Below are positions 10,788-33,560 of a stretch of DNA of 64,000 nt, one piece after another (the stretch's first letter is position 1; each line of letters begins with the position of its first letter). The DNA comes from Deltaproteobacteria bacterium. GTDB taxonomy: Bacteria; Desulfobacterota; Desulfobacteria; Desulfobacterales; Desulfosarcinaceae. Under the pieces are notes generated by a model. That model saw only the letters and a list, made by a program, of their open reading frames with translations. It did not search any database and was not told the origin of the DNA. Both the position numbers and the translations under genes were made by a program. The DNA lies in NCBI GenBank assembly GCA_021824175.1, contig JAKALP010000001.1:62001-126000 (forward strand). The letters are read 5' to 3'.

Positions 10788-10869
10788 CGTACTCATACTC
10801 GTACTCGTGCTTTTAAGTGCCACATGCAGGCTTGCTTCGAGTACGAGTACGCGTACGAGTACGAGTACG
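10788..10869. repeat. Inverted hexamer repeat cassette (GTACTC / GAGTAC)
   Basis: The left arm (10788-10810) reads as GTACTC units and the right arm (10838-10869) as GAGTAC GAGTAC GCGTAC GAGTAC GAGTAC. The arms are reverse complements over most of their length, with a 27-base spacer. The cassette lies just beyond the stop of the receiver gene at 10884 and could form a large hairpin there. Confidence 0.8.
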
Positions 10870-10883
10870 ATTAGAAAGCGGGA

Positions 10884-11261
10884 TCAAACCAGTTCCGACA
10901 CCTTTTTGAGCAAGGCGTCGCGGTCCACGGGTTTGGTAAAGGTGCAGGCCGCGCCCAGCTTTTGGGCCAGGTGCAAATAATCTTCGGGCTTGTTGCGGCC
11001 GCCGCCTGAAATGGCGATGATCTTGACGCCGGGGTTGCTCTTGCGCAGCTTGGTGATGGTCTCGATGCCTTCCATCTCGGGCATGATCAGGTCGGTGATC
11101 ACCACATCAAAGGGTTCCAGCAGACTGAGCTTGGAGTCGTAGAGTTTCAGGCCCGCGGCGCCATTGCCGGCCATGGCGACCTCGTAGCCGGCCCGTTCAA
11201 AGGTTTGTTTGAGCATTTTTTGAACAAAATCGTCATCTTCAATGATCAATACTTTTTTCAC
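10884..11261 (-). CDS. Stand-alone response regulator receiver protein
   Basis: A single receiver domain with the usual signature: acidic pair in KKVLIIEDDDFVQ, phospho-acceptor Asp in FDVVITDLIMPEMEG, Ser in IIAISGG and Lys in CTFTKPVD. There is no output domain, so it would act by protein contact. A GTG 15 bases further upstream would extend it, but GGAGG sits eight bases before the internal GTG at 11261, which makes that the better start. The protein ends just before a hexamer hairpin cassette. The partner kinase is not adjacent. Confidence 0.9.
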   Translation of the reverse strand: MKKVLIIEDDDFVQKMLKQTFERAGYEVAMAGNGAAGLKLYDSKLSLLEPFDVVITDLIMPEMEGIETITKLRKSNPGVKIIAISGGGRNKPEDYLHLAQKLGAACTFTKPVDRDALLKKVSELV

Positions 11262-11468
11262 GGTGTGATCCTCCACCTGCTGGTACTCCGCATTGGGTTA
11301 TTGGTTCGCGGGCTGTGTGCTTTGTGAATAAGGCCGCCGGACAGCTTCCGGTAACCCGATAGAAGCTTGCACCGCGGCTGAAGGCCGGTCAGCCACAAGC
11401 CTCCCGCTGAATTGTTATCGTCCATCCGCGTAAAAAGATTAGCCACGAAAGGCGTTTTTTTATAAGTA

Positions 11469-11516
11469 GGGGCTTTGGGGCTTTGGGGCGTTGGCCCGTT
11501 GGCCCGTTGGCGCGTT
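11469..11516. repeat. Six 8-bp units, GGCCCGTT-type tandem repeat
   Basis: Exact 8-base periodicity: GGGGCTTT, GGGGCTTT, GGGGCGTT, GGCCCGTT, GGCCCGTT, GGCGCGTT. It lies directly upstream of the cysteine-rich gene at 11556. It belongs to the same unit family as the cassette at 15651-15906. No inverted arm is seen next to it. Confidence 0.85.
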
Positions 11517-11555
11517 CAAGGCCTCAACCGCCATTGCCAGGAGATCGTAGCCAGT

Positions 11556-12053
11556 ATGCTGAATGCAAAAAGCGATTTGATAGAGCGGTATGGTCGATTG
11601 GAGATGGAGATACAGCGACGCATGAACGCCTGCTGCAGCGCTTTTTGTTCGGTTTGCAAATCACCTTGCTGTCGCGTCGAGTATTGTCGGGAAGCTTTGG
11701 AGAGCCCTTTTTTAGAGGCTGTAAGGCAGCGGTTTGCACCCGCCGTCCATTGGAATTCGGATTCAGGCTGGCTGACGGCCAAGGGCTGTGGTTTGGCGGC
11801 CGGGCGTCCGCCGGTGTGCTATGAGTTTCTCTGCCGGCCCATTCTGGAGGCCCAACCCACTCCGGAGCGCCTTGAAGCCGTGAAGCAGTTGGCCATGCTG
11901 GTCACCATGGCCGGACGCCGCGCCCGGGGCAACCGTCATGTGGTTGAGCTTGAAGATTTAGAGCGGATCAACGCAGCCCGATTGTTGGCGCAGGTAACCA
12001 GTTCAAGTGCCGCCTTGGCACGGATGGAGTTGATTGAAGCGGATAGGGTCTAA
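11556..12053 (+). CDS. Cysteine-rich hypothetical protein (YkgJ-like Cys cluster)
   Basis: About 165 residues with a dense cysteine cluster near the N-terminus (CCSAFCSVCKSPCCRVEYC) and two more cysteines in PPVCYEFLCRPIL. This pattern suggests an Fe-S or zinc site, similar in spirit to YkgJ-type proteins. A longer frame exists, but its extra N-terminus is translated from the tandem repeat at 11469-11516, so the ATG at 11556 is preferred. The C-terminal half is helical and charged. The function is unknown. Confidence 0.65.
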   Translation: MLNAKSDLIERYGRLEMEIQRRMNACCSAFCSVCKSPCCRVEYCREALESPFLEAVRQRFAPAVHWNSDSGWLTAKGCGLAAGRPPVCYEFLCRPILEAQPTPERLEAVKQLAMLVTMAGRRARGNRHVVELEDLERINAARLLAQVTSSSAALARMELIEADRV

Positions 12054-12136
12054 TGATCCGAGTCCTCAGAGAATGTGAGTCGCAATTATTGCACAGCCTT
12101 GATTGCGATCAAAGCAACACTCTTCTTGATTTGCGC

Positions 12137-12925
12137 TCAGTCGTTTGAGGGCGGCGGCGGGTTGCCTTGAGCTCCATCCTTGTAGCATTTGCCGGCATAC
12201 CAGTCGATCTGACGGCAGATGCCGCGAATGATGCTCACCTCGCCGGCCTGGAGCTGCAGCCGGGTGAAAAAGCGGCGCAACTTGTTTAACCAATAGTCGG
12301 GGTTTTCGGGCTGGATGTAGCAGATGCGCACCAGCAGCTCCCGGAGCTGGTCATACATGCCGTCCAGCTCGATGCGGGTGGCCAACCGGGGCGTGATGGT
12401 TTTGACCGGCGGCATATTGGTTTTAAACAGTTCGTAGCAGAGCACCATCACTGCCTGGGCCAGGTTAAGAGAAGAAAATTGGGCCGTGGGAATGGTCACC
12501 AGGTGGTGGCACAGGCGCAACTCCTCATTGGTCAAACCGCGATCTTCGGGCCCGAACACCAGGGCCACTTGGTTATCCTGGGAAACCGGGACCAGATATT
12601 CGGCCATTTGGGCCGGCGCTGAAATGGTCTGGCGCTGGCCGCCCAGCCGCGCCGTGGTGCCCACCACGCAGTTATAAGAGGCCAGGGCCGGGCGCAGATC
12701 CTCGAAACACTCCATCTGTTCGACTACCTCAATGGCCGCATGGGTGGCCAAGGTGAGTACGCGGGTCAAATCACAGTTCTCCGGCGCCACCACCACCAGA
12801 TGGCCGATGCCCATATTGCAAACGGCCCTGGCCGCGGCCCCGATGTTTTCCGGAAAGCGCGGCCGGTTGAGCACCACGGTCACATTTTCGAGGCGCACTC
12901 CGGTTGTTTTGGGGGTTGGGCTCAT
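12137..12925 (-). CDS. trmJ: tRNA (cytidine/uridine-2'-O)-methyltransferase TrmJ-like
   Basis: A 262-residue SpoU/SPOUT methyltransferase. The three family motifs are visible: RPRFPENIGAAARAVCNMG near the N-terminus, LVFGPEDRGLTNEEL in the middle, and FSSLNLAQAVMVLCYE, which builds the knotted AdoMet site. A C-terminal helical extension of the TrmJ kind follows. TrmJ methylates the ribose at position 32 of tRNA anticodon loops; the exact nucleotide preference cannot be read here. The last residues are Pro-rich. An imperfect ribosome site (GGA) precedes the ATG. Confidence 0.9.
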   Translation of the reverse strand: MSPTPKTTGVRLENVTVVLNRPRFPENIGAAARAVCNMGIGHLVVVAPENCDLTRVLTLATHAAIEVVEQMECFEDLRPALASYNCVVGTTARLGGQRQTISAPAQMAEYLVPVSQDNQVALVFGPEDRGLTNEELRLCHHLVTIPTAQFSSLNLAQAVMVLCYELFKTNMPPVKTITPRLATRIELDGMYDQLRELLVRICYIQPENPDYWLNKLRRFFTRLQLQAGEVSIIRGICRQIDWYAGKCYKDGAQGNPPPPSND

Positions 12926-12946
12926 GGAGTTCCGTGACTAGGGAGT

Positions 12947-13002
12947 CAGAATTCAGAAGTCAGCATGGGAGAAGTTGTCATCTGCGCTGCTTCTGAATTC
13001 TG
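12947..13002. repeat. Inverted repeat, 13-bp perfect arms
   Basis: CAGAATTCAGAAG at 12947-12959 is matched by its exact reverse complement at 12990-13002, with a 30-base loop. It lies between the divergently placed 5' end of trmJ and the 3' end of ndk. The left arm is itself part of a short AGTCAG/AATTCAG-like repetition. Confidence 0.8.
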
Positions 13003-13078
13003 GATACTCGCCGAACAGTTAAAATGCATTTAATCTTCGTTGTCTTCGTTCGCGTTAAAGATAGAACGCTTGGGTTCT

Positions 13079-13492
13079 CTAGACTCGCTCAAAGGCGTTG
13101 AAGAAATAGCTGGTTTCAAAGGCCGCGGTTTCGGGCGCGTCCGAACCATGGACCACGTTCTTTTCAATGTCCGTGGCAAAGTCGCGACGAATCGTGCCCT
13201 CGGCCGCATCTTTGTAATTGGTGGCGCCCATCATTTCGCGCCAGCGGGCAATGGCGTTTTCACCTTCCAGAATCATCACCAGGGCCGGTCCGGAGCTCAT
13301 GAATTCGGTCAGGCTTTTGAAAAAGGGACGGGCCTTGTGAACGGCGTAGAAGCCTTCGGCCTGGGCTTTGGTCATGTGAACCAGTTTCATGGCTTTGAAA
13401 CGCAGGCCGGCGCTTTCGATGCGCTTGAGCACGTCGCCGATCAATCCCCGGGCCACTCCATCCGGTTTTACAATGGCAAATGTCTGCTGCAT
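13079..13492 (-). CDS. ndk: Nucleoside diphosphate kinase
   Basis: A 137-residue NDK starting [20 protein letters not shown], the standard N-terminus. The catalytic histidine motif [15 protein letters not shown] and the C-terminal F-E are present. It transfers the gamma phosphate from ATP to other NDPs through a phosphohistidine. An upstream ATG would add 43 residues, but the family start is at 13492 and has a GGAAAGGAAAG ribosome site before it. It is monocistronic as far as can be seen. Confidence 0.97.
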
Positions 13493-13608
13493 GATTTTAC
13501 TTTCCTTTCCTTGAAAAAAGTTGCGGCTGGCATAACAGATGGCCCTATTCAAGTCAATGTGGATGCTATCGCAGGTGTGAGTCATGGCTGTTGCACGACT
13601 TGGTTTGT

Positions 13609-13675
13609 TCGGTATCGGCATCGGTTTCGGAATCGAAACGCCGCGATAGCGATACCGAGTCCAATATCGATGCTG
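13609..13675. repeat. GGTATC-like hexamer repeat with partial inverted arm
   Basis: Hexamer units GGTATC GGCATC GGTTTC GGAATC (13611-13634) are followed by CGATAGCGATACCGAG and ATCGATGCTGATC, which are largely their reverse complement. It lies in the gene-free space upstream of ndk. It looks like a degenerate member of the inverted short-repeat cassettes seen elsewhere in the window. Confidence 0.6.
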
Positions 13676-13739
13676 ATCAAAACAATACTTCTGTCTTGCA
13701 CTCGCTCTGGTAAATAGGCGTTAACAGCCAGAATTTATC

Positions 13740-13772
13740 TTGTAATTTTGCATTTAAAATGCAAAATTACAA
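13740..13772. promoter_or_regulatory. 33-bp perfect palindrome upstream of the ATPase gene
   Basis: Two exact 16-base arms surround a single central A at 13756; the left arm reads TTGTAATTTTGCATTT. It ends six bases before the first possible ATG (13778) of the AAA/DUF4143 gene. The size and position suit an operator or a 5' leader hairpin. No promoter hexamers are clear around it. Confidence 0.75.
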
Positions 13773-13786
13773 ACATCATGAGGTGC

Positions 13787-15013
13787 ATGATCGTCAAAAA
13801 CTATATCCAGCGGAGTTTGGAAAGAGCGCTCAAACAGGCTGCGGCAGAGTTTCCCGCCGTGGTTCTGACTGGTCCACGTCAATCGGGAAAGACTACCCTG
13901 CTTAAAACACTTTTTGGCGACCGATACGGCTATGCCTCTCTGGAACCACCGGATATCCGTGAGGCCGCCATTCATGATCCCCGTGGATTTCTGCGACTCC
14001 ATCCGCCACCGGTCATTTTCGATGAAGTGCAGTATGCGCCCGATTTGCTGCCGTATATCAAAGAAGTGATCGACACCCATCGGGACCAGCCGGGCCAATA
14101 TCTATTGACCGGGTCACAGAATCTGCTGTTGGTGCAGAAGATCACCGAGTCGCTGGCGGGACGTGCCGCCATGCTGCGGCTACTGCCCCTTTCGCGACAC
14201 GAGATTGGGGGCAATCCAAACGCCCTTATGCCATGGGAGGCCGAAGATCTTCAAAAATCCCGATCGACTGTCACCAATCACGATATCTGGTACGACTTCC
14301 TACGCGGCAACTACCCGGAACTGGTCGCCAATCCCGAGCGTGATAGTCAGCTTTGGCACTCCAGCTACATTCAGACTTACCTGGAGCGCGACGTGCGCAT
14401 GTTACGCCAAGTGGGCGATCTGACCCAGTTCCAAATTTTTCTCCGGGCCTTGGCAGCCAGGAGCGCCCAACTCTTGAGCCTGAGCGATTTGGCCAGGGAT
14501 CTGGGCGTAGCGGTGAATACTGTCAAAGCCTGGCTCTCCGTACTCGAAGCCACCTATCAAATTATCGTACTGCGGCCCTACCACGCCAACATCGGCAAAC
14601 GGCTTGTCAAGACCCCCAAAGTCTACTTCATGGATGCCGGCACGCTTTGCCATCTGACCGGCCTGAGAGACCCGCGGCATGCGGCGGCCGGCCCCTTGGG
14701 CGGCGCTATTATGGAGACCGTCGTGCTATGCGAAATCTATAAAACCTTTACCCATCGCGGCATTGATCCGCAGCTTTATTTCTGGCGCACTTCCGCGGGT
14801 ACCGAGGTGGACATAGTGGTTGAAATCGGCGGCAAACTCATCCCCATCGAAGTAAAACTTACCGCCACGCCGCGCCCCGCCATGGCCACCGCCATCGGGA
14901 AGTTCCAGCAGGACTTTGGTAATCAAGCGTTGCCGGGCTATTTGATCCATTCAGGCGAATTGCGGCTGCCTCTTGGGGAAAATGTAACGGCGTGGCCGTT
15001 TCGGGGGTTATAG
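13787..15013 (+). CDS. AAA ATPase with DUF4143 domain
   Basis: About 408 residues. The Walker A motif is LTGPRQSGKTTLLK near residue 35, Walker B is PPVIFDEVQYAPDLL, and the sensor segment is YLLTGSQNLLL. The DUF4143 C-terminal half follows, with YIQTYLERDVRMLRQVGDL and, near the end, the nuclease-like GTEVDIVVEIGGKLIPIEVK. The last motif resembles the D-ExK core of restriction-like folds. Proteins of this family are abundant, horizontally mobile and of unclear function. ATGs at 13778 and 13787 are both possible starts; MIVKNYIQR at 13787 is the usual family beginning. A perfect palindrome lies immediately upstream. Confidence 0.88.
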   Translation: MIVKNYIQRSLERALKQAAAEFPAVVLTGPRQSGKTTLLKTLFGDRYGYASLEPPDIREAAIHDPRGFLRLHPPPVIFDEVQYAPDLLPYIKEVIDTHRDQPGQYLLTGSQNLLLVQKITESLAGRAAMLRLLPLSRHEIGGNPNALMPWEAEDLQKSRSTVTNHDIWYDFLRGNYPELVANPERDSQLWHSSYIQTYLERDVRMLRQVGDLTQFQIFLRALAARSAQLLSLSDLARDLGVAVNTVKAWLSVLEATYQIIVLRPYHANIGKRLVKTPKVYFMDAGTLCHLTGLRDPRHAAAGPLGGAIMETVVLCEIYKTFTHRGIDPQLYFWRTSAGTEVDIVVEIGGKLIPIEVKLTATPRPAMATAIGKFQQDFGNQALPGYLIHSGELRLPLGENVTAWPFRGL

Positions 15014-15156
15014 AATAAAAGAAGTACAGCGCCTCTATGCCAGACACCGTCGTGATTTGACAAGGCGTTGACAACCAATGGTCAACATTTTATTTATGGC
15101 CATCGAGTGCGAAATAGTGATTGTCCAAGAATATTAAAGCGATACGAGGTTGAGCC

Positions 15157-15651
15157 ATGCCCATTTATGAATTCTACTGCGATCAATGCAATACCATCTA
15201 TAATTTCTTCTCGCGTTGCATCAACACCACCAAGCAGCCCCAGTGCCCCCAGTGCCAAACTAAAACATTGTCGCGCCAGATGTCAGCCTTTGCCGTGGTC
15301 GGCCGGGCCAAGGAGGGCGGCGAAGATGGCGAAGATTTGCCCTTTGATGAATCCAAAATGGAGCAGGCCTTGCAAGCGCTGGCCGGCGAGGCCGAAAAGA
15401 TCAACGAGGATGATCCGCGCCAGGCGGCGCAATTGATGCGCAAATTGACCGATATGACCGGCATGGAGCTGGGCGGCGGCATGGAAGAGGCGCTGCGACG
15501 CATGGAGCGGGGTGAGGACCCGGAGCAGATCGAGGCCGAGATGGGGGATTTGCTGGAAAGCGAAGATCCGTTTCAGATGGCGGGCAAGAAGGGCGCCAAA
15601 GGGGCGCGGCGGAGCGCGCCGCGGCGGGATGAGACGCTGTATGATCTTTAG
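15157..15651 (+). CDS. FmdB-type zinc-ribbon protein with acidic C-terminal extension
   Basis: A 164-residue protein. The first 50 residues are the FmdB/CxxC zinc ribbon (MPIYEFYCDQCNTIYNFFS, then CPQC). The rest is Glu/Asp-rich and helical (MEEALRRMERGEDPEQIEAE), as in longer deltaproteobacterial versions. The function is unknown; FmdB was named as a putative regulator, which is not established for this type. GAGG lies before the ATG. The stop codon abuts the first unit of the tandem repeat cassette at 15651. Confidence 0.85.
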   Translation: MPIYEFYCDQCNTIYNFFSRCINTTKQPQCPQCQTKTLSRQMSAFAVVGRAKEGGEDGEDLPFDESKMEQALQALAGEAEKINEDDPRQAAQLMRKLTDMTGMELGGGMEEALRRMERGEDPEQIEAEMGDLLESEDPFQMAGKKGAKGARRSAPRRDETLYDL

Positions 15652-15906
15652 TCCGTTTGCCCGTTTGCCCGTTGGCCCGTGGGCCCTTTGGCCCGTTGGG
15701 CCGTTCGCCCGCGAAAAACCGACTGTCCGTTGAACCATGTGTTTAAAAAGCACAACGATAAACAGTTAGTTGGGGTTTGGATTGTTCAATAAGCCCATTT
15801 TTTGGTTGGATCTATGAGCGACGGGCTTACAAGCCCACGGGTTAACGGGCCCACAGACTAACGGACCCACGGGCCAACGGGCAAACGGGCCAACGGGCCA
15901 ACGAAC
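15651..15906. repeat. Inverted octamer repeat cassette (GCCCGTTG / CAACGGGC)
   Basis: The left arm (15651-15713) is eight 8-base units in perfect register, consensus GCCCGTTG, starting on the last base of the preceding stop codon. After a 121-base spacer, the right arm (15835-15906) is nine units of the reverse complement, consensus CAACGGGC. It fills almost the whole gap between two same-strand genes. The following ribosome site (AAGGAGGT) begins about 20 bases beyond the right arm. Confidence 0.9.
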
Positions 15907-15940
15907 CTAACCATTAATCTCTGCCCATAAGGAGGTATGC

Positions 15941-16471
15941 ATGTCTTCATCCATCCTGAATAGGCTCGAAATCCAGCAAGGCGACATCACCCAACTCAAG
16001 GTGGATGCCATTGTCAATGCGGCCAACACTTCCCTGTTGGGCGGCGGCGGGGTGGACGGCGCCATTCACCGGGCCGCGGGTCCCCTGTTGCTAGCCGAAT
16101 GCCGTACCCTGGGCGGTTGCCCCACCGGCGAAGCGCGGATTACGCGCGGCTACAATCTGCCGGCCAAACATGTGATCCACACCGTGGGGCCGGTGTACAG
16201 CGGCAAACCCCGGGACGCCCAGCTTCTGCGCTCCTGCTATCAAAACAGCCTCGTCCATGCTGTGGCCCACAAACTGCGGACGGTGGCATTTCCGGCCATC
16301 AGTTGCGGGGTTTATGGCTATCCCATCGCCGATGCCTGCAAAATCGCCGTGGATACCTGCATCGAAACGCTCAAAGCCCATCCTGAATTTGAAAAAATCA
16401 TCTTCGTGCTTTTTTCCCCATCGGATCTTGGGGTTTATGCCGATTATCTGCGGACATTCAATGTCGGTTGA
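15941..16471 (+). CDS. Macro-domain O-acetyl-ADP-ribose deacetylase-like protein (YmdB type)
   Basis: A 176-residue single macro domain. Key segments are [20 protein letters not shown] (adenosine and catalytic loop), [20 protein letters not shown] and ISCGVYGYP (phosphate loop). Enzymes of this class hydrolyse O-acetyl-ADP-ribose or remove ADP-ribose from proteins. The Asn and Asp of NAANxxxxGGGGVD used in catalysis are present, so it is probably active. AAGGAGGT gives a strong ribosome site. The upstream gap is occupied by the octamer repeat cassette. Confidence 0.93.
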
Positions 16472-17130: not shown

Positions 17131-17157
17131 TTTTTAATTACCTTATTTTATGATGTT

Positions 17158-17200: not shown

Positions 17201-17253
17201 TCAGCCGCAAAGCGACCATGGTATGAGAATGTATCCCCAGAGTGAGGTGAACC

Positions 17254-18159: not shown

Positions 18160-18191
18160 AAGGTTTGGGAGGGGATTGGGAAGCCTTGCAT

Positions 18192-18943: not shown

Positions 18944-18945
18944 AT

Positions 18946-18971
18946 GGTTGATTGGTTGATTCGTTGAGTGG
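18946..18971. repeat. TTGATT-type octamer units
   Basis: GGTTGATT GGTTGATT CGTTGAGT GG. The last 18 bases are identical to 32023-32040 in the hcp/hcpR cassette. A short inverted unit (GAATCAACGA, 19027-19036) lies 55 bases downstream, just before the SagB-type gene. Confidence 0.7.
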
Positions 18972-19054
18972 GGAAGCTTGATATGTCTTCCAATTTCTTC
19001 CACCGGATTATTGTTTGACCGCTCGGCGAATCAACGATGCTGTGGGAAAGATGA

Positions 19055-24762: not shown

Positions 24763-24764
24763 TC

Positions 24765-25854
24765 GGGGACGCCCTTAACTTATTAACTTTGTATTGACAC
24801 TCAGCTACAGGCCTGCTACGTTCCTGGCATGCCAAGAAAAGCCCGCATAGATGCAGCCGGAGTCCTGCATCATATCATTGCGCGCGGCATCGAGCGGCGC
24901 AAGATATTCATTGACGACCAGGACCGGTACGATTTTCTGGAGCGTATCGGTCCTATCCTCGAACAGACCCAGGCCGCCTGCTATGCCTGGGCCTTGATGC
25001 CCAACCATTTTCATCTGCTGCTGCGCACGGGATCATATCCAGTGGCCACGGTGATGCGGCGGCTGCTCACCGGGTATGCGGCCGGCTTTAACCGGCGCCA
25101 TTGCAGGCATGGCCATCTCTTTCAAAACCGCTACAAATCCATTCTTTGCCAGGAAGATGCCTACTTCCTGGAGCTGGTGCGGTACATCCACCTCAATCCA
25201 TTGCGGGCGCGCTTGGTGAACGACCTGGATGCCTTGAACCGATATCCATTTTCCGGACATAGCGCTTTATTGGGAAGACATGAGCAGGCTTGGCAGCATA
25301 CCCAAGCTGTGCTCTCCCATTTCAGCCCAAAAGCGATAGCCGCCCGAAAGCACTATTTGGCATTTGTGGCTAAAGGCATTGATCAGGGTAAACGACCGGA
25401 ACTTACCGGCGGCGGTCTGGTGCGCAGCGCCGGCGGATGGTCGGCGGTCAGCGCGATGCGCAAAGCCGATTCCCATATGAAAAGCGATGAGCGCATTCTG
25501 GGCGATGGCGATTTTGTCGCTCAAATCTTGGCCCAAGCCAATGAGGCTCTGGAGAAAAAGTATGAGCTGAAGGCCGCTGGCATCGATATTGGTTACATTG
25601 CCCAACGTGTGGCGCATCTGTTGGACATGCCTGTTGAAGAGGTGTGGCTGGAGGGTCGCTACCAGAAGCTCGTCAAAGCCCGCAGTCTTTTATGCTTCTG
25701 GGCCGTGCGCGAGTTGGGGATGAGCATGACCGCTCTGGGGCGCATGCTGAAAATTTCCACCGTAGCTGTGAGCAAAGCCGTTCATCGGGGGGCAGGGATT
25801 GCTGCTGCAGAAGAATATCGCCTCAGGATAAGTTAAAAAGTTAAGGGCGTCCCC
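24765..25854 (+). mobile_element. RAYT element bounded by inverted REP sequences
   Basis: GGGGACGCCCTTAAC at 24765-24779 on the left and its exact reverse complement at 25840-25854 on the right bracket a Y1 transposase gene. The right copy begins just after the transposase stop and lies directly before the histidine kinase gene. This is the layout of a REP-associated tyrosine transposase unit. A sigma-70-like pair, TTGACA (24794-24799) and TACGTT (24817-24822), lies inside the left end. Confidence 0.85.
24829..25836 (+). CDS. REP-associated tyrosine transposase (RAYT, Y1_Tnp)
   Basis: 335 residues. The N-terminal Y1 domain starts MPRKARIDAAGVLHHIIARG and has the HUH motif in MPNHFHLLLRTG. 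The tyrosine helix is FLELVRYIHLNPLRARLV. The C-terminal half carries a DnaA-like or HTH region (LARSLLCFWAVREL-type segment; LGRMLKISTVAVSKAVHRG), as in the long RAYT forms. RAYT proteins cut single-stranded REP hairpins and are thought to spread them. The protein seems intact. The ATG lies only six bases after a possible -10 box. Confidence 0.92.
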   Translation: MPRKARIDAAGVLHHIIARGIERRKIFIDDQDRYDFLERIGPILEQTQAACYAWALMPNHFHLLLRTGSYPVATVMRRLLTGYAAGFNRRHCRHGHLFQNRYKSILCQEDAYFLELVRYIHLNPLRARLVNDLDALNRYPFSGHSALLGRHEQAWQHTQAVLSHFSPKAIAARKHYLAFVAKGIDQGKRPELTGGGLVRSAGGWSAVSAMRKADSHMKSDERILGDGDFVAQILAQANEALEKKYELKAAGIDIGYIAQRVAHLLDMPVEEVWLEGRYQKLVKARSLLCFWAVRELGMSMTALGRMLKISTVAVSKAVHRGAGIAAAEEYRLRIS

Positions 25855-28110: not shown

Positions 28111-28224
28111 AGGGTAACTCAGCGATAGGCGACATCTACCCCCATAAGCGCTAACTTAAATAGACAACTAAATTCTGTTGAAAAAAGAATATCGAATGTT
28201 GAACAACAAATATCGAATTACAAA

Positions 28225-28324
28225 GTTTTCTTTTTTTTGGTAATGATTCTTCAGTTCGGTTAATATGTACGGCGAAATCAATCAGTTGTTCATTAATGTC
28301 GTACTGTTTAAGTTCCTTCGGCAT
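28225..28324 (-). pseudogene. Truncated four-helix bundle protein gene (23S IVS-type family)
   Basis: From ATG 28324 the frame reads MPKELKQYDINEQLIDFAVH and continues to ...TEESLPKK. This matches the first 33 or so residues of the chromosomal four-helix bundle family related to the 23S rRNA intervening-sequence protein. It then runs into AT-rich sequence made of GAATATCGAA-like repetition (28180-28220 and again 28340-28360) and stops soon after. Three of four helices are missing, so it is a remnant. The flanking repeats are typical company for this family. Confidence 0.6.
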
Positions 28325-28484
28325 TTTGCTGTTCCTTGTTCGATATTCGAAATTCAATTAAGATGGCGCTTTTGAAATCTACCCCTGCCCTGGGCGTTCT
28401 GTCTCTATTCGCCAGAATATCCGCCGTAGCTGAATTTCGCCTTAGTTCTTCAGTCTTCGGCTTTCTCTCCCGACAGCCGTAATA

Positions 28485-29246
28485 TTATGCGACTTTGCGC
28501 TCCTGAAGAATTTTTCCTCGGGTGCTGATCACCACTTCCGTCATGGGGATTTGGGCTTTGGATTTCTCCAGGGCTACTTTAACAATGTGGGGCAAGCCAG
28601 CGCAGCAGGGTACTTCCATGACCACGGTAGTAATGCTTTTGATCCCCGAGACCTTGAACAGTTCGGTGAATTTCTCCACATACATCTGGGCGTCATCGAA
28701 CTTGGGGCAGCCGATCATGACGGCCTTGCCTTGCAAAAAATCGCGGTGGAAGGAGGGAAAGGCCACGGGCACACAATCGGCGGCCACTAGTAAATCCGCC
28801 CCTCTGAGGAAAGGTGCGGTGGGGGGCACCAGGCGGATCTGCACGGGCCAGTGGGCCAGGGCGGAGTCAGTTGCACCGGCCTGGAAAGCGGGTTTATTGG
28901 CCTGGGCGCAGGGGCTGGCAAAGCTTTGGATCTGGGCCGAGGGGCAGCCGCAGGGCATGCTTTTGGGGGCCGGCGCGGCTTGGTGGCCGGCCTGGCTTTT
29001 CTGGGCATGCAGATGCTTTTCAACAGCGGCTTCATCAAATACTTCGGCTTCGCGTTCGATGATCTTGAGCGCATCCTGGGGACATTCGCCAATGCAAGCG
29101 CCCAATCCGTCGCACAAGTTGTCTGAAATTACTTTGGCTTTGCCATCAATAATGGCCAAAGCACCTTCGGCGCAGCCGTTGACGCAAGCACCGCAACCAT
29201 TGCATTTTTCTTCGTCTATTTGAATGATTTTACGTACGCTTTTCAT
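28485..29246 (-). CDS. 4Fe-4S ferredoxin-domain protein with C-terminal (thiol/metal) domain
   Basis: 253 residues. Two [4Fe-4S] motifs are at the N-terminus: CNGCGACVNGCAEGAL and CDGLGACIGECPQDAL. The second cluster has the altered spacing CxxxxxCxxxC rather than CxxCxxC. A Pro/Ala-rich linker follows. The C-terminal domain has VMIGCPKFDDAQMYVEKF and VVMEVPCCAGLPHIV, whose cysteines may bind a cofactor. GGAGG six bases upstream fixes the start at 29246. It is placed 45 bases after the zinc-ribbon/HD-like gene and downstream of hcp on the same strand, suggesting one redox operon. Confidence 0.85.
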   Translation of the reverse strand: MKSVRKIIQIDEEKCNGCGACVNGCAEGALAIIDGKAKVISDNLCDGLGACIGECPQDALKIIEREAEVFDEAAVEKHLHAQKSQAGHQAAPAPKSMPCGCPSAQIQSFASPCAQANKPAFQAGATDSALAHWPVQIRLVPPTAPFLRGADLLVAADCVPVAFPSFHRDFLQGKAVMIGCPKFDDAQMYVEKFTELFKVSGIKSITTVVMEVPCCAGLPHIVKVALEKSKAQIPMTEVVISTRGKILQERKVA

Positions 29247-29291
29247 TGGATTCCTCCACTTTTCCTCAGGACGCACCGGATCGGCCGTCGA

Positions 29292-29975
29292 CTATTTAAG
29301 AAGCAGTTGCCGAGCGTATTTCTGCCCTTCTGCTGTTGTGATCAATTGGTGAATTTGTGATTCGATCTGTGATGGATCGCTATCTTCCTTGAGGGCATCT
29401 TCCAGGTCGGTCACGTGGGCGGCTTCGGCCACAATTTGTTGATCCGTGGCGTTGCCGTTCAGCGCCGTTTGCCGGGAAATAATAGCGCACACCTTGTCGA
29501 TGAGGGGCGTGGGCGCCTTGAGTTCCGCCAGCAGAGCGCGGGCCGCGGGTAGTTCAGTACCGCCTGCCGCCTCATCCAGGTCCCAAAGGTAAGCGGCAAT
29601 GAGTACGGCCGCCAGATTGCCCTTTTCTACCTGGCAGATTTTTTCGGCGTGGCGCGCCCGGCGCGCGGCCCGGCCGATGGCTTTGAAATCGTTTTTCAGA
29701 TGACGCTTGACCGCGATGGCCACGCGGTCCTTGAGCAGATCTTCTTTCTGGGCCACCAGTTCGGGCGGCAGATCGCCCAGGCACTGCTCGGCGAACTGGC
29801 AATAGGCCGCGCAGCCGAAATCCATTTTGGGATTGACGAAGCGATGGCCGCAACGGCCGCACTTGCGGGTGGTGTCATCTTTGAAGAATTCCACGGCACC
29901 GCCGCACTTGGGACAAACGGCTTCGAAAATGGCGCTGGCGTTCCAGAATTGGGTGTCTTGGCCGGGACATTTCAT
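29292..29975 (-). CDS. Zinc-ribbon protein with degenerate HD phosphohydrolase domain
   Basis: 227 residues. The first 60 hold two CxxC pairs (AVCPKCGGAVEFF; RKCGRCGHRF) and a Cys-rich CAAYCQFAEQC. The remainder has the helical arrangement of deltaproteobacterial HD-type phosphohydrolases that share this ribbon. However, the position that normally carries His-Asp (AYLHD) reads AYLWD, so the metal site is broken. It may be a sensor or scaffold. GGGAGG precedes the ATG. It lies upstream of the ferredoxin gene and downstream of hcp, separated from hcp by a repeat hairpin. Confidence 0.75.
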   Translation of the reverse strand: MKCPGQDTQFWNASAIFEAVCPKCGGAVEFFKDDTTRKCGRCGHRFVNPKMDFGCAAYCQFAEQCLGDLPPELVAQKEDLLKDRVAIAVKRHLKNDFKAIGRAARRARHAEKICQVEKGNLAAVLIAAYLWDLDEAAGGTELPAARALLAELKAPTPLIDKVCAIISRQTALNGNATDQQIVAEAAHVTDLEDALKEDSDPSQIESQIHQLITTAEGQKYARQLLLK

Positions 29976-29994
29976 GGCGCACCTCCCGTTTTTG

Positions 29995-30106
29995 TTGATT
30001 CGTTATTGGTTGATTCGTTGATTCGTTTTCCCGTTGCCCGTTTGCCCGTTCTTGTCCCACTGACACGGGCCAGCGGGCCAGCGGGCAAACGGGCAACGGG
30101 TTAACG
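29995..30106. repeat. Composite octamer cassette with near-perfect hairpin, downstream of hcp
   Basis: Units run TTGATTCG, TTATTGG, TTGATTCG, TTGATTCG, TTTTCCCG, TTGCCCG, TTTGCCCG (29995-30048). After a short spacer the inverted units CGGGCCAG, CGGGCCAG, CGGGCAAA, CGGGCAA and CGGG follow (30066-30100). Bases 30025-30048 pair with 30082-30105 at 22 of 24 positions and keep the same order of 7- and 8-base units. Both unit families are joined in one cassette. It begins six bases beyond the hcp stop. Confidence 0.88.
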
Positions 30107-30111
30107 TTTTT

Positions 30112-31743
30112 CTATCCCAAAATCGCCTTCAAATCCTGATCCGGCGTGCCGATGGGCATGATGTTGAAGTTCTGCACCAGCACGTTGAGCACGTTGGGGC
30201 TGATGAAGGCCGGCAGGCTGGGGCCCAACCGGATATTCTTGATGCCCAGGTGGAGCAGGGTCAGCAGGATCACGCAGGCCTTTTGCTCGTACCAGGAGAG
30301 AATCATGGAGAGCGGCAGATCGTTGACCCCGCAGTTGAAGGCGCCAGCCAGGGCCACGGCGATCTTGATGGCCGAGTAGGCGTCGTTGCATTGGCCCACA
30401 TCCAGCAGGCGCGGAATACCGCCGATGGTGCCCAGATCCTTGTCAAAGAAGCGGAACTTGCCGCAGGCCAGAGTCAGCACCACGCAGTCCTGGGGGATCT
30501 TCTCCACTAGTTCGGTGTAGTAATCGCGTCCGGGTTTGGCGCCGTCGCAGCCGCCCACCAGGAAGAAGTGGCGGATGGCTTTGCTCTTTACTGCTTCGAT
30601 CACCTGGCCGGCCACGCCCAGGACCGCATTGCGGGCAAAGCCCACCATCACGGATTTACCGGCTTTGTCTTCGGTAAATCCCGGCATGGCCAGGGCTTTT
30701 TCAATGGCCGGGGTAAAATTTTTATCGGCGATGTGGCGCACGCCGGGCCAGCCCACCAGACCGGTAGTAAAAATATTATCCTTGTAGGTTTCTTTGGGTT
30801 TCTGGATGCAGTTGGTGGTCATGATGATGGCGCCCGGGAATTCGGCGAACTCCTTGCCCTGGTTCTGCCAGGCCGTGCCATAATGACCGTAGAAATGGGA
30901 GTACTTCTTCAACCCCGGATAGCCGTGGGTGGGCAGCATTTCGCCATGGGTGTAGACATTGATGCCTTTGCCCTGGCTCTGTTTGAGAATCTGCTCCAGA
31001 TCTTTCAAATCATGGCCGGAGACTAGAATGGCCTTGCCTTTCTTTTGGCCCAGGGGCACGGACGTGGGGACGGGGTGGCCGTAGGTGCCGGTGTTGCCCG
31101 CATCGAGCAGTTCCATGGCCCGCAGATTGACCTCGCCGCACTTGAGGGCCAGGCCGACCAGGTCGTTGACGCCCAGGGCGTTGTTCAGGGTGGCGGCCAT
31201 GCCTTCATAGATGTATTGGTAGATGGCATCATCTTCCTGGCCCAGAATGCGGGCATGGTCGGCATAGGCGGCCAGCCCCTTGATGCCGTAAATCAGCAAT
31301 TCGCGCAGGCTGCGGATATCGGCGTCCAGATCCTTAACGGATGGAATGCCCACTTTTTCACCCTGGGCCACCAGACCGTTGAGGTCCGCGGCAGGCTTAA
31401 AAGCAACCGCTCCTTGGCCTGCATCCGCCATTTTGCCGCCCGCTTTTTCGATCTTGGCAATCAGGCTGTCGCGCAGCCGGACCGCCTCTTTGATCAGAGC
31501 CACGAAGCGGTCCGGATCAAAATCCACATTGGTCAGGGTGGAAAAGATCGCTTCGCAGGTGAAACGGTCCACCTGGGCGTCTTTTATATTGGATTTGCGC
31601 GCTGCCAAGGCCGCCTGGGAAAGCCCCTTGACCGCATAAAGCAACAGATCCTGAAGGGCTGCCACATCCGGCTGCTTGCCGCATACGCCGATTTTGGTGC
31701 ATCCTTCGCCTTTGGCCGCTTGCTCGCATTGGAAACAGAACAT
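30112..31743 (-). CDS. hcp: Hydroxylamine reductase (hybrid cluster protein)
   Basis: 543 residues, the normal length. The N-terminal cluster ligands are C3, C6, C15 and C21 (MFCFQCEQAAKGEGCTKIGVC). Hybrid-cluster segments such as GHDLKDLEQIL, THGEMLPTHGYPGLKKY and FFLVGGCDGAKPGRDYYTE are present. Hcp reduces hydroxylamine and, in several bacteria, nitric oxide, and protects anaerobes from nitrosative stress. A strong AAGGAGGT site precedes the ATG. Two HcpR-type palindromes lie upstream, so it is probably controlled by the divergent regulator at 32178. Confidence 0.98.
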   Translation of the reverse strand: MFCFQCEQAAKGEGCTKIGVCGKQPDVAALQDLLLYAVKGLSQAALAARKSNIKDAQVDRFTCEAIFSTLTNVDFDPDRFVALIKEAVRLRDSLIAKIEKAGGKMADAGQGAVAFKPAADLNGLVAQGEKVGIPSVKDLDADIRSLRELLIYGIKGLAAYADHARILGQEDDAIYQYIYEGMAATLNNALGVNDLVGLALKCGEVNLRAMELLDAGNTGTYGHPVPTSVPLGQKKGKAILVSGHDLKDLEQILKQSQGKGINVYTHGEMLPTHGYPGLKKYSHFYGHYGTAWQNQGKEFAEFPGAIIMTTNCIQKPKETYKDNIFTTGLVGWPGVRHIADKNFTPAIEKALAMPGFTEDKAGKSVMVGFARNAVLGVAGQVIEAVKSKAIRHFFLVGGCDGAKPGRDYYTELVEKIPQDCVVLTLACGKFRFFDKDLGTIGGIPRLLDVGQCNDAYSAIKIAVALAGAFNCGVNDLPLSMILSWYEQKACVILLTLLHLGIKNIRLGPSLPAFISPNVLNVLVQNFNIMPIGTPDQDLKAILG

Positions 31744-31875
31744 TGTGTTACCTCCTTGTTGGTTCTTTTAATCTGCGTTCATTCAAATTCGGGTTCAGCT
31801 AATATTGTTAGGCTTTTGTTTGCCTCTCAATCCCAATTGTTGAGTCCATAATAAGCATTTTTGCTTGGCGCCACC

Positions 31876-31889
31876 TTGATGTAAGTCAA
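31876..31889. promoter_or_regulatory. HcpR/FNR-type operator 1 (TTGATGTAAGTCAA)
   Basis: A 14-base near-palindrome matching the TTGAC-N4-GTCAA form described for HcpR in sulfate reducers, with one half-site base changed. It lies 133 bases upstream of the hcp ATG. Confidence 0.7.
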
Positions 31890-31963
31890 AACCTCACATT
31901 TTTTTCCCCGCGGTGGCCGGCTCATGTTGGCTTTGGGTATAGCCCGGCCGATATGGTCACGCC

Positions 31964-31977
31964 TTGACTTAGATCAA
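31964..31977. promoter_or_regulatory. HcpR/FNR-type operator 2 (TTGACTTAGATCAA)
   Basis: A second 14-base half-symmetric match to TTGAC-N4-GTCAA, 74 bases from operator 1 and directly before the left arm of the octamer cassette. It may serve the divergent regulator gene, hcp, or both. Confidence 0.7.
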
Positions 31978-31982
31978 GATTT

Positions 31983-32160
31983 GGTTGATTAGTTGATTCG
32001 TCTATTCGTTGATACGTTGATTGGTTGATTCGTTGAGTGGTGAGGGGGGTTGATAAACAGGAATGAAGAGTGCTGCGCCACTATTTTGATGAACTCGTAA
32101 AGGTAGCATACTGGTGGTAAAGTCAACCAATCAACGAATCAACGAATCAACCAATCAACG
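31983..32160. repeat. Inverted octamer cassette (GTTGATTC / AATCAACG) between hcp and hcpR
   Basis: The left arm (31983-32038) is seven 8-base units of CGTTGATT type in perfect register. After an 83-base spacer the right arm (32122-32160) is five reverse-complement units, AATCAACG type. It fills the 5' leader of the regulator gene, ending 17 bases before its ATG, so any hairpin would affect that transcript. Confidence 0.9.
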
Positions 32161-32177
32161 AAAACAGGAAGAGTGAT

Positions 32178-32867
32178 ATGCTTCGAAAACGCGACGTCAT
32201 TGCCCATAGTCCATTATTCAGCGGATTGGCCGAAGATCAGATGAACCATCTGGAGCAGATCAGCCGCGATGTGCATCTGGCCAGGGGCGAAACGGTGTTC
32301 ATGGAGGGCGAACCGGGCAAAGGTTTTTATATTGTGGCCGCGGGCAAGGTGAAAGTCTTCAAGGTCTCGGCCGAAGGCAAGGAACAAATTCTGCACATTT
32401 ACGGCCCAGGCCAGCCCATTGGTGAAGTGCCGGTCTTTGCCGGCCAGCTCTTTCCGGCCCATGCCCAGGCCGTGGAAAAATGCCATCTGATCTTCTTCCC
32501 CCGCCAGGCGTTCATTGACCTGATCACCGCCCATCCCTCGCTGGCATTGAACATGCTGGCCGTGCTCAGCGTGCGCTTGCGGCAATTCACCATGCAAGTG
32601 GAGAATTTGTCACTGAAAGAGGTGCCGGGTCGGTTAGCGTCCTATCTGATCTATCTGAGCGAAGAACAAAACAACACACAGGAGGTACGGCTGCCCATTT
32701 CCAAAGGGCAGTTGGCCAGCCTGCTGGGAACCATCCCCGAAACCTTGTCGCGTATCTTCAACAAGATGTCGGCCCAGGGATACATCGATGTCCAGGGCAT
32801 GGCCATAGCCATCAAAGATCGCGAAGCGCTGGCGGATCTGGCGTTGAACGGGCGGCTGGTGGAGTGA
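32178..32867 (+). CDS. hcpR: Crp/Fnr-family regulator, HcpR-like
   Basis: 229 residues. A cyclic-nucleotide-type beta-roll occupies about 10-125 (GETVFMEGEPGKGFYIVAAG; GQPIGEVPVFAG). A long dimer helix follows, then a winged HTH with ISKGQLASLLGTIPETLSRI as the recognition unit. No cysteine set for an FNR cluster is seen. In sulfate reducers, HcpR activates hcp and nitrosative-stress genes through TTGAC-N4-GTCAA boxes. Divergent position plus two such boxes support that identity here. A GGAAG site precedes the ATG. Confidence 0.85.
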   Translation: MLRKRDVIAHSPLFSGLAEDQMNHLEQISRDVHLARGETVFMEGEPGKGFYIVAAGKVKVFKVSAEGKEQILHIYGPGQPIGEVPVFAGQLFPAHAQAVEKCHLIFFPRQAFIDLITAHPSLALNMLAVLSVRLRQFTMQVENLSLKEVPGRLASYLIYLSEEQNNTQEVRLPISKGQLASLLGTIPETLSRIFNKMSAQGYIDVQGMAIAIKDREALADLALNGRLVE

Positions 32868-32920
32868 GCAGGACGGCTCGACCTTTTGGGTAGAATATGT
32901 AAGTCATCCGCTCAAATAAA

Positions 32921-32954
32921 GAAGGTGGAAGTTCTATCAATACCTTCCACCTTC
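32921..32954. terminator. Stem-loop between convergent genes
   Basis: GAAGGTGGAAG (32921-32931) pairs exactly with CTTCCACCTTC (32944-32954) over a 12-base loop. It lies between the convergent ends of the hcpR-like gene and the ferritin-like gene. No long T-run follows on either strand, so the terminator role is only probable. Confidence 0.55.
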
Positions 32955-32986
32955 ACGCTTATATCTTCTTCCTTATACCTACGCAC

Positions 32987-33463
32987 CTATTTCTTCGAGG
33001 CCGCCAGCTCCTTGCTCAGCAAGCGGATGTGGCCCATCTCTTCTTTAATAATATCGTCGAGACGGTTGCGGCCCAATTCTTCGGGTACCATGTCGCGCAT
33101 ACCAAGATAAAAAACAATGGAGTCCTTTTCAGCCGTGATGGCGTCTTTTAAGATGGCCTGCATGGAGGAGGTGTCGATGTTCTTTTCGAAAAATACGCGG
33201 GTGTTGGCCAGGGCTTTCAGGTATTCCGCGGCTTCGCCTTGGGGGTCGAACACGGTGGCCGTCTTCTCCGCGGCTTTCAGCTGGCTGCGCATTTTGGCAA
33301 AGGTCTTTTCATGGTCATCTTCCATGGACGCCAGCTTGAGCAGAAATTGGTTGGCATTTTTGTCTTTCACTTTCTCGGCAGCCGTACGGTAGAATTTGGC
33401 GCCGTTGCGCTCCATCTGCTCCGCCATTTCGAAAATCTCATCGGCATTGAAATCGTACATCAT
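32987..33463 (-). CDS. Ferritin-like / rubrerythrin-type di-iron protein
   Basis: 158 residues, a four-helix bundle only. Ligand pairs are EQMERNGAKFYRTA, SMEDDHEKTF (ExxxH-like), AITAEKDSIVFYLG and IKEEMGHIRLL (ExxH). There is no rubredoxin domain at the C-terminus. Such proteins reduce peroxide or handle iron in anaerobes. The small zinc-ribbon gene at 33559 precedes it in the same direction with a 95-base gap. Confidence 0.88.
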   Translation of the reverse strand: MMYDFNADEIFEMAEQMERNGAKFYRTAAEKVKDKNANQFLLKLASMEDDHEKTFAKMRSQLKAAEKTATVFDPQGEAAEYLKALANTRVFFEKNIDTSSMQAILKDAITAEKDSIVFYLGMRDMVPEELGRNRLDDIIKEEMGHIRLLSKELAASKK

Positions 33464-33499
33464 TGCGGCTTAATTCCTTTCTGTGGTCTATTTTTTAAG

Positions 33500-33560
33500 T
33501 AAAATGTTGTGCGGTAAAACTTCTTTATGTCTTAGTCCCTCAGTCCCTTTGTCCCTTTTC
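33500..33560. repeat. Short degenerate GTCCCTT-type tandem units
   Basis: About 33533-33560 reads AGTCCCTC AGTCCCTT TGTCCCTT, another 8-base periodic stretch between two genes. No inverted arm is visible nearby. Confidence 0.5.

Follow-up and report, generated by a model that had tools for sequence, protein, structure and literature searches.

Tandem octanucleotides on opposite strands were described in 2009 in Geobacter metallireducens, where predicted global regulator binding sites were grouped into classes 1–3 and a set named S8g (PMC2700814). The words of class 1, class 2 and S8g are GTTGCTYN, TCTCCGTS[Y] and TWGTTGAY, respectively. Classes 1, 2 and 3 form 24, 21 and 8 pairs, respectively, in that one genome, with a variable distance between the partners in classes 1 and 2, and it was proposed that the sites bind IHF/HU or other regulators (PMC2700814). 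Intergenic tandem 7-mers, the TAACTGA direct repeats, are known from Beggiatoaceae, Cyanobacteria and Bacteroidetes and lie, in one genome, mainly just ahead of start codons; of the sets reported there, 169 are direct and one is indirect, and the layout is not a paired inverted one (PMC4679880).

The DNA analysed here is a stretch of 64 kb, called the window, from a bacterium related to the sulphate reducers. The original prediction held that its inverted repeat cassettes belong to no named class. As to the name this stands: none was found in a literature search of mostly open-access main texts, and five array strings were absent from the open-access text searched. As to the layout it does not, because the cited passages on G. 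metallireducens already describe paired octamer arrays (PMC2700814).

Repeat sites in the window

The following features were identified in the window.

10788..10870, no strand: hexamer inverted pair CGTACT/GAGTAC (TRF, 6 nt, at 10788 and 10838; RNAfold; Pfam)
11469..11516, plus strand: single octamer array of family B, GGGGCTTT then GTTGGCCC words (TRF, 8 nt; own scan)
12944..13003, no strand: 7-mer AGTCAGA array with inverted partner, absent from the original prediction (TRF; RNAfold stem)
13609..13675, no strand: weak hexamer TCGGNA pair (TRF 13609–13635, 6 nt, score 33–40; threshold of own scan not reached)
15653..15711, plus strand: left arm of family B, GTTTGCCC/GTTGGCCC, beginning right behind the stop codon of a Zn-ribbon gene (TRF, 8 nt)
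15833..15903, minus strand: right arm of family B, 37 nt ahead of the start of a Macro-domain gene (TRF, 8 nt)
18945..19036, no strand: GTTGATT array directly behind a stop codon, absent from the original prediction (TRF; RNAfold; own scan)
29994..30106, no strand: mixed cassette, GTTGATTC words followed by a GTTTGCCC/GTTGCCC inverted pair (TRF, 8 nt; RNAfold; Pfam)
31984..32038, plus strand: left GTTGATT arm of family A, in a cassette flanked by divergent Prismane and Crp-type regulator genes (TRF 31984–32036, 8 nt)
32121..32162, minus strand: right AATCAAC arm of family A, 18 nt ahead of the Crp-type regulator start (TRF 32123–32162, 8 nt)
33531..33558, plus strand: single CTTAGTCC-type array with family C words, absent from the original prediction (TRF; own scan)

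At least six intergenic sites with units of 6–8 nt had been predicted, and TRF found arrays at all six that were named, the weak one at 13609 being missed by the stricter scan. The arrays are periodic as claimed; their register is not strict, as degenerate units and one-base shifts are present. Reverse-complement arms, expected at most sites, were paired by RNAfold at 10788, 15651, 29995 and 31983. Site 11469 has one arm, at which no inverted array was seen and RNAfold gave a local stem only.

The 10788 pair has a Phage_holin_4_2 gene (Pfam) and a response-regulator gene as neighbours, both on the minus strand. Hexamer arrays like it were found elsewhere in the genome (L111, L114, L120, L125 with two, and L129) and also within the GTTGATT loops of L003 and L019. 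The cassette at 12944..13003 sits between SpoU methylase and NDK genes (Pfam), and the 13609 pair lies on the start side of the NDK gene, which is on the minus strand. A hairpin of similar kind with TCGGNA words was seen by eye downstream of the Prismane gene in relative G001. In the 18945 array the inverted partner is one word, near 19027–19036. The mixed cassette, with TRF arrays at 29994–30050 and 30065–30100, is located between the stop side of the Prismane gene and the next gene.

Abundance and word families

The arrays are real, and their excess over chance is confirmed, as the original prediction implied. A total of 49 tandem arrays of 5–10-nt units was found in 464 kb, 10 of them in the window (own scan), while the same scan found 1 array in one order-1 shuffle and a mean of 0.8 over 5 shuffles, in which whole stretches were resampled with intergenic and coding DNA together. 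The sample consisted of the window and 20 stretches of 20 kb from the same genome, taken at round coordinates from contigs already listed in the family word search; they were not picked for hits, though some hit positions were known. Intergenic DNA held 39 of the 49 arrays, though about 86% of the sample was coding according to our own gene caller, which uses hexamer scoring.

The octamers of family A (GTTGATTN), family B (GTTNGCCC) and family C (NNAGGSAC) gave 318, 274 and 314 genome-wide matches, respectively, compared with 7, 75 and 0 in the controls, and the octamer word was kept at 7 of 8 positions across hundreds of matches. The S8g word rotates to GTTGAYTW, close to the family A octamer, and from the cited passages the density looks higher here, with 15 strong family A arrays in 464 kb versus 48 class-1 sites on the 4-Mb G. 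metallireducens chromosome (PMC2700814). Array words vary from species to species in the genus and also inside a single genome. The prediction that units differ between sites and share one architecture is supported across both sites and species.

The prediction that the arrays match no catalogued family also agrees with the results: Rfam gave no match at or above the gathering cut-off (window 10000–34500), and neither the repeat layout of CRISPR nor the RAYT and palindrome traits of REPINs were found. CRISPR arrays have direct repeats of about 25–40 nt with regular spacers and were rejected as a candidate, since the units here are 6–9 nt and contiguous.

Arm order, position and pairing

One arm order was found in 69 of 70 pairs (39/39 in family A, 16/17 in family B and 14/14 in family C), with loops of 21–370 nt between the arms. 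The loci were chosen by family-pattern match and comprised, for families A, B and C, respectively, 16, 11 and 10 of 30 search loci and 44, 20 and 20 fetched sites, each set with 21 sample pieces; the excluded search loci duplicated sites already covered by another piece. The pairing count in the 464-kb sample was made without that choice. There, 8/15, 4/9 and 3/6 strong arrays of families A, B and C, respectively, had an opposite array no more than 400 nt away, while 300 trials of random placement in non-coding DNA gave means of 1.2, 0.5 and 0.3 pairs and maxima of 6, 3 and 3. Integron attC sites carry RYYYAAC on the left and GTTRRRY on the right, in the same orientation behind each gene. They were rejected as a candidate, as the arm order here is reversed, with GTT on the left, and paired arrays were found in all gene orientations. 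The layout of the G. metallireducens classes in the cited passages, paired tandem octamers on opposite strands at variable spacing, recurs in these pairs (PMC2700814).

The arms often begin at a stop codon or end shortly before the next start. This gene-border position, the fixed arm order and the conserved word suit a protein array, and binding by regulators is what the 2009 passages proposed for G. metallireducens (PMC2700814). Nucleoid or global regulators, IHF/HU-like or other, would bind the arrays, and the opposite arms would let the protein bridge or bend DNA. We regard this as improbable for the present arrays. Among the 38 family A pairs with both neighbours called, in which one divergent site was counted twice, 12 have convergent neighbours, a setting in which a promoter is not expected. 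This count had the window site 31984 entered twice (as L010 and as the window), and the single array L186/L128 twice as well. The variation of words within one genome and between species speaks against regulator binding too. Furthermore, the near-whole-element copies and the order-wide core described below need copying, beyond selection for sites.

The original prediction had suggested cruciforms or RNA hairpins as what the arrays form, and this was not borne out as the property that is kept. The match between the two arms of one cassette did not exceed that between arms of different cassettes in family A (p=0.93) and family C (p=0.34), which speaks against selection for exact hairpins; family B was marginal (p=0.06). 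A separate pairing test in family A gave p 0.96, and complementarity reaching into family A loops gave p 0.10. The arm-match test thus ruled out fold-back copying or compensatory pairing as a general rule in families A and C, with p 0.06 in family B.

These tests also bear on replication slippage alone, by which simple repeats would grow in place and gain inverted partners by fold-back template switching. Long simple repeats of 5–11 nt, above all 7-mers, are known in scattered bacteria, according to the passages of PMC4679880. Mirror copies are suggested by two cassettes of family C (L294 and L289), and the marginal arm match in family B also fits. However, identical words occur in hundreds of matches with one arm order, arms in families A and C are generally not mirror copies, and loops and cores recur at unrelated loci. 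The slippage-only reading is already disfavoured, and we judge it very unlikely.

Orthologous sites in relatives

The spacer between the aminotransferase and VOC genes lacks a cassette in G001 (10 nt) and G008 (23 nt). In G000 this spacer is occupied by a GTTGATT cassette, and in G005 by a GATCAACC/AATCAACC array. At the site of window 15653..15903, the Zn-ribbon/Macro spacer without a cassette is 48 nt in G002 and 21 nt in G009. The strains compared are too distant to show a clean insertion. A CheX-like locus (L188) was dropped as an empty-site test, as its downstream region was by eye not recognisably the same in relatives. All 10 genus members read show, by eye, an inverted repeat downstream of the Prismane gene, and its sequence differs among them, so the cassette seems to be a stand-in for an ordinary hairpin there.

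The Prismane site favours a role as RNA stem-loops, serving as terminators, attenuators or stability hairpins between cistrons or at the 3' ends of mRNAs, for which tandem words would be one way to build a stem; long stems are formed by the arms in silico (RNAfold), and many arms begin at stop codons. As an account of the cassettes in general it appears doubtful at best, and we give it a small chance. Loop lengths reach 370 nt from a minimum of 21 nt, the arms are not co-adapted in families A and C, and pairing into family A loops is not clear. In addition, 4 distinct family A pairs (5 listed, one site twice) lie between divergent genes, and the aminotransferase–VOC junction does with spacers of just 10 and 23 nt in two relatives.

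Recurring inner sequence

Inner sequence recurs among the dispersed elements that the arrays cap. This feature was not visible to the original prediction, and the cited passages and legends on G. metallireducens describe no inner core, polarity counts or element copies (PMC2700814). In genome G003, L339 and L341 aligned over about 376/387 nt at 75% in opposite orientation, with no flank match between them. For family C in G000, L289/L292 aligned over 186/196 nt (78%) and L275/L279 over 104/112 nt (75%), both in opposite orientation, and L290/L293 aligned in the same orientation, at 83% over 108/117 nt of the shorter loop; the flanks of different family C loci did not match each other. Classical MITEs are short, non-coding, dispersed elements with inverted ends. 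Their combination of inverted ends and copies at unrelated places was found for several copies in families C and D, after one family D site (L138) entered twice in the comparison had been discounted.

Similar 80-nt flanks between loci were more frequent on the inner than on the outer side, with 35 vs 11 pairs in family C and 55 vs 37 in family B. The counts for family D (302 vs 48) and family A (333 vs 10) are inflated, because the search pattern for family D loci itself extended into the inner flank and because partner arrays fall within the inner flank in family A. The recurring inner sequence of family B includes a terminator-like hairpin. Family A loops are mostly unique, so copying as a unit in this family rests on the arm order and on the 8 of 78 arms given below.

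In sister species, 7-mer arrays (family D) cap the core AAGGAATTCTGTCGATT. Of 194 genomes searched in the order, 51 hold this core with at most one mismatch. One PCR-genotyping paper in the open-access text contains the complement of a segment of the core. Within family A (GTTGATT) arms, the core was present on the inner side in 8/78 (5 strong) and on the outer side in 0/78, at a 0.5% random threshold. The D-type core was found in family B on the inner side in 0/32 and on the outer side in 1/32, and in family C in 0/28. A count of 15/382 run with the core-in-arm test may take in genes ending in arrays.

When genus copies were retrieved with only the core as pattern, the outer side was periodic in 14 of 31 and the inner side in 3 (99% null threshold). 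In other genera, 5/28 outer and 0/28 inner sides were periodic at each set's own threshold, and 7 and 0, respectively, at 0.625; of these 28 order loci, 8 were returned by the search and 20 were hand-picked from genomes with the core. As 23 of the 28 passed no own-set periodicity threshold, the core does not need an array. Loci L329–L358 of family D were fetched by an array-plus-core pattern, so the pooled values of 42/67 outer and 5/67 inner are biased; array-plus-core loci taken separately gave 31/37 outer and 4/37 inner. Core neighbours less than 600 nt apart were oriented '+-' in 11 cases, '-+' in none and in the same direction in 3 (genus loci examined).

Proposed origin of the cassettes

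From sequence comparison, the cassettes are probably REPIN- or MITE-like miniature, non-autonomous inverted-repeat elements that were copied about the genome and have fast-evolving tandem ends. At each end, an inner sequence that recurs in other copies would be capped on the outside by tandem 6–9-nt words. The unit would land between genes, often right behind a stop codon or just ahead of the leader of the next gene. The caps would then change by gain, loss and substitution of units (slippage), independently in each arm, so that words differ by family or species and the layout stays. A regulatory effect, if any, would be a by-product or a later use. The comparisons themselves show the excess over chance, the single arm order, the recurring inner sequence, the near-whole-element copies in families C and D and the orthologous sites with no cassette; movement by an enzyme, slippage as the source of the caps and a like origin for families A and B are what we infer from them.

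A bolder version, which seems rather unlikely to us, would be an order-wide class of miniature mobile elements recognised by their conserved inner core. Their outer ends would be rebuilt repeatedly as species-specific tandem 6–9-mers by a putative end-copying or slippage-prone enzyme, which would start at the core, proceed outward and halt at gene borders. If true, transposable elements would have a novel means of producing and altering their ends. Addition of a telomerase-like kind at break ends was considered for the fixed arm order; it leaves the long loops and their recurring content unexplained and was kept only within this bolder version.

If the cassettes are indeed miniature elements, tandem repeats described apart, as regulator sites, heptamer repeats and simple repeats, could partly be variable ends of core-sharing mobile elements. 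The core would then offer a way to search for the enzyme, and strain comparisons could test unit turnover. Sequence by itself would also be a poor basis for reading such arrays as regulatory sites. Some arrays provide the stop codon of a gene or take up an entire intergenic region, and thus shape gene ends.

Search for hallmarks of mobility

Sharing between the two outer flanks of one cassette did not exceed that of permuted flanks (p 0.64, 0.80 and 0.92 in families A, B and C, respectively), giving no sign of target-site duplication at a power limited by fuzzy array edges. A search of the loci examined for an autonomous parent gave one inverted core pair 600–3000 nt apart, which held no called gene. 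Compared with classical MITEs, the cassettes have fast-varying ends and showed no target-site duplication, and no parent transposon was found in the loci examined.

In the passages cited, REP sequences and REPINs are similar in having two inverted ends and a spacer, an extragenic position, hundreds of copies and many doublets plus singlets, and their IS200/IS605 kin likewise show no target duplication (PMC3116915, PMC2817692). The ends here are tandem words (in family D with a core such as AAGGAATTCTGTCGATT), unlike the GT(A/G)G-headed, GC-rich palindromes of REPINs in those passages. Membership of the RAYT/REPIN system was rejected, as no family A, B or C array was found within up to 1.5 kb on each side of the 7 IS200-like (PF01797) loci of this genome. 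The window itself has an IS200-like gene at 24829–25836, and its locus (L226) is without an array. At 4 of the 7 PF01797 loci there are weak arrays made of different words, among which no inverted pair was seen; two of them resemble words of window sites 11469 and 12944.

Abundance and Distribution of the Short Tandem Arrays

The short tandem arrays are a real, abundant and structured feature of the genome under study (G000; 6.07 Mb in 61 contigs). Six short-repeat sites at gene borders, most of them with an inverted array, had been named between positions 10788 and 33560 of the window (C10:62001-126000 of G000); all six were present in the window sequence, and a tandem-repeat search of the window found three further array sites in the same interval. 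The window and 20 stretches of 20 kb contained 49 arrays with units of 5–10 nt, of which 39 were intergenic, while a single shuffle contained 1 array and five shuffles a mean of 0.8. Searches of all of G000 for three consecutive words gave 318, 274 and 314 matches for GTTGATTN (family A, GTTGATT words), GTTNGCCC (family B) and AAAGGNAC-type words (family C), compared with 7 (reversed word), 75 and 0 matches for the controls, respectively.

GTTGATTN was by far most frequent in G000. Among the other members of the genus (G001–G010), 36, 7 and 2 matches were found in G005, G009 and G001, respectively, and none in the seven others searched. Samples of 80 kb from G003, G009, G002 and G006 contained 6, 1, 4 and 3 intergenic arrays, respectively. 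Applied to loci of other genomes, most of them named (1.17 Mb in all), the same scan gave 67 arrays versus 9 in shuffles, and their words were mostly different from those of G000. Arrays of 7-mers with their own words were seen at L048, L053, L056, L084 and L086, loci titled Syntrophobacteraceae, Deltaproteobacteria, Nitrospirae and Desulfonatronovibrio, with some inverted pairs by eye. Judged by the Prismane (hybrid-cluster) protein, the nearest named relatives of G000 were Desulfatitalea-titled MAGs (82–87%) and one Desulfosarcina-titled MAG (82%).

Two contigs of G000 end in long GTTGGCCC arrays, of about 15 units (C22:319884-320003) and about 13 units (C23:26116-26219). The assembly seems to have been broken by long arrays such as these, and the two ends may be joinable to each other.

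Layout of the Cassettes at Gene Borders

Each cassette consists of an array, a loop and an inverted array, and the order of the arms was constant in 69 of 70 pairs. Of 27 family A left arms beside a gene on the plus strand, 18 lay −10 to +11 nt from the stop codon; of 19 right arms beside a minus-strand gene, 11 lay −5 to +10 nt from it. The stop codon was inside the first word (offset −5) in 7 of these 27 left arms, compared with 15 of 382 sample genes whose stop context was within one mismatch of a family A word. Right arms of family A ahead of a plus-strand gene ended 6–37 nt from the start in 11 of 20 cases (one site counted twice). In family B, 9/11 left arms beside plus-strand genes and 5/5 right arms beside minus-strand genes were found −5 to +8 nt from the stop. 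In family C, 6/7 left arms lay −1 to +9 nt from the stop and only 2/9 right arms lay −10 to +11 nt from it. Genes neighbouring family A pairs were oriented ++, +−, −− and −+ in 15, 12, 6 and 5 cases, respectively (one −+ site counted twice). Unpaired family A arrays, counted where listed with gene calls on both sides, were directed inward from the nearer gene in 33 of 40 cases (one array counted twice).

Pairing and Independence of the Arms

In the 464-kb sample, strong arrays of families A, B and C had an opposite array within 400 nt in 8/15, 4/9 and 3/6 cases, respectively. Random placement in non-coding DNA gave means of 1.2, 0.5 and 0.3 pairings and maxima over 300 trials of 6, 3 and 3, so that only family C, with 3 observed against a maximum of 3, did not exceed every trial. 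Fold-back copying or kept complementarity predicts that an arm matches its own partner best. The match to the own partner was not better than to other arms in families A (p = 0.93) and C (p = 0.34) and the test was marginal in family B (p = 0.06); two family C cassettes, L294 and L289, had a mirror-copy appearance. From these sequence comparisons, we read the cassettes as probably born as units with inverted ends, the arms of which were then turned over separately.

Dispersal of Units and Recurring Inner Parts

Families C and D, the latter being the 7-mer arrays of G003 with an inner core, were dispersed as units. In G003, L339 and L341 aligned in opposite orientation over nearly their entire length, and L336/L346 and L343/L349 were 71–72% identical over most of their length; comparison of the flanks, L138 aside (entered twice), gave one 53-nt match (L336/L343). 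In G000, nearly all of the shorter loop was aligned in the family C pairs L289/L292, L275/L279 and L290/L293, and no match was found between the flanks of different family C loci. Loops of families A and B had only short pieces in common, often nested hairpin repeats (for example, CGTACT hairpins enclosed by GTTGATT arms), and a 60-nt inner sequence was common to several family B arms. At L240, L246, L250, L251, L312 and L327 of G000, family B arrays were followed by a recurring AAACACCTTAATTT..ATCAGA..TTTGATCCCGC sequence that includes a terminator-like hairpin; more words in the same direction follow in some of these loci.

The AAGTTTT arrays of G003 carried GAAGGTATTCTATCGATT and its like on the inward side. 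A pattern across this border had 41 matches in G003 and none in four other genomes searched, including G000. The core AAGGAATTCTGTCGATT, with up to two mismatches, was found 152, 93, 40, 39 and 13 times in G003, G009, G007, G002 and G000, respectively, and 0–5 times in each of the remaining six genus genomes, with a reversed-control total of 1. With up to one mismatch, it was present in 51 of 194 genomes of the order; the reversed control matched 22 times in 3 genomes, and one of these, which had no forward match, accounted for 20. Arrays outside the core carried other words, for example of the GAATGAC and GAAGATTG types.

Of 31 copies from the genus that were retrieved with the core as the only query, 14 were periodic on the outer side and 3 on the inner side, and of 28 copies from other genera 5 and 0, respectively, with the 99% periodicity threshold taken separately for each set; a single threshold of 0.625 gave 7 outer versus 0 inner for the other genera. 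Several non-periodic copies bear a different hairpin outside; the core can thus occur without an array. In G000, the core lay inside 8 of 78 family A arms (5 strongly) and outside none, inside 0/32 and outside 1/32 family B arms, and inside or outside 0/28 family C arms (1/28 inside by a looser count).

By eye, many 7-mer arrays at L329–L358 of G003 had a further shell, GGGCCCTGGCGGGCC, outside, and GTTGGGTTTG words and CGGCATGCCG hairpins on the inner side, forming nested, onion-like repeats. At L405–L407, L409 and L410, from other genera of the order, the core adjoined a different repeat by eye: a GC-rich hairpin lay on the outer side and CGCTCGCTAACCCCGC or a similar sequence on the inner side.

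Orthologous Sites

Orthologous sites without a cassette were found in other members of the genus. The aminotransferase–VOC site was compared in nine species with sequence beyond the stop, G010 being excluded as it runs off the contig. The proteins ended alike, with KYR in G000, G008, G006, G001 and G005. G001 and G008 had spacers of only 10 and 23 nt, respectively; the spacer contained a hairpin by eye in G006 and G003 and was long in G002 and G007; G005 carried a GATCAACC/AATCAACC array. G000 carried a GTTGATT cassette, whose first word supplies the TGA stop, leaving the protein end unaltered. At the Zn-ribbon/Macro site, G000 had a cassette, the spacers of G002 and G009 were 48 and 21 nt, and other palindromic sequence was seen by eye in G010 and G007. 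A long nested palindrome common to G010 and G008 (L133, L137) was also seen by eye there, at the site of the G000 octamer cassette. An inverted repeat of varying sequence was read by eye 3′ of the Prismane gene in the ten genus members read, and the cassette downstream of this gene may act as the hairpin there.

Known Systems and Proposed Mechanism

The available text of PMC2700814 describes 24 class 1, 21 class 2 and 8 class 3 pairs of similar layout, and the cassettes are therefore not categorically new; our verdict is that they are a variant of a kind already described yet unnamed. Judging from the available parts of the sources, REPINs (PMC3116915) and REPs beside RAYTs (PMC2817692) are closest to the cassettes in behaviour, whereas TAACTGA repeats (PMC4679880) are direct repeats, unlike the inverted cassettes here.

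The most likely reading of the cassettes is as dispersed miniature elements whose ends consist of tandem words. An enzyme would recognise the inner part and copy the whole unit, insertion would be tolerated only between genes, and slippage would lengthen or shorten the outer words, keeping the register and erasing the symmetry. No target duplication was found, so a single-strand mechanism would suit, by analogy with IS200/IS605. However, none of the seven loci of G000 with the IS200-like transposase domain (Y1_Tnp, PF01797) had family A–C arrays, and four of the seven had weak arrays of other words. One of the seven proteins (335 aa) is encoded in the window at 24829-25836 (L226), a locus with no array. 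The weak arrays at two of these loci, L225 and L227, consisted of GGGGCTTTT (×2.4) and a TCCTGACT-like 7-mer, words that resemble those at 11469 and 12944 of the window.
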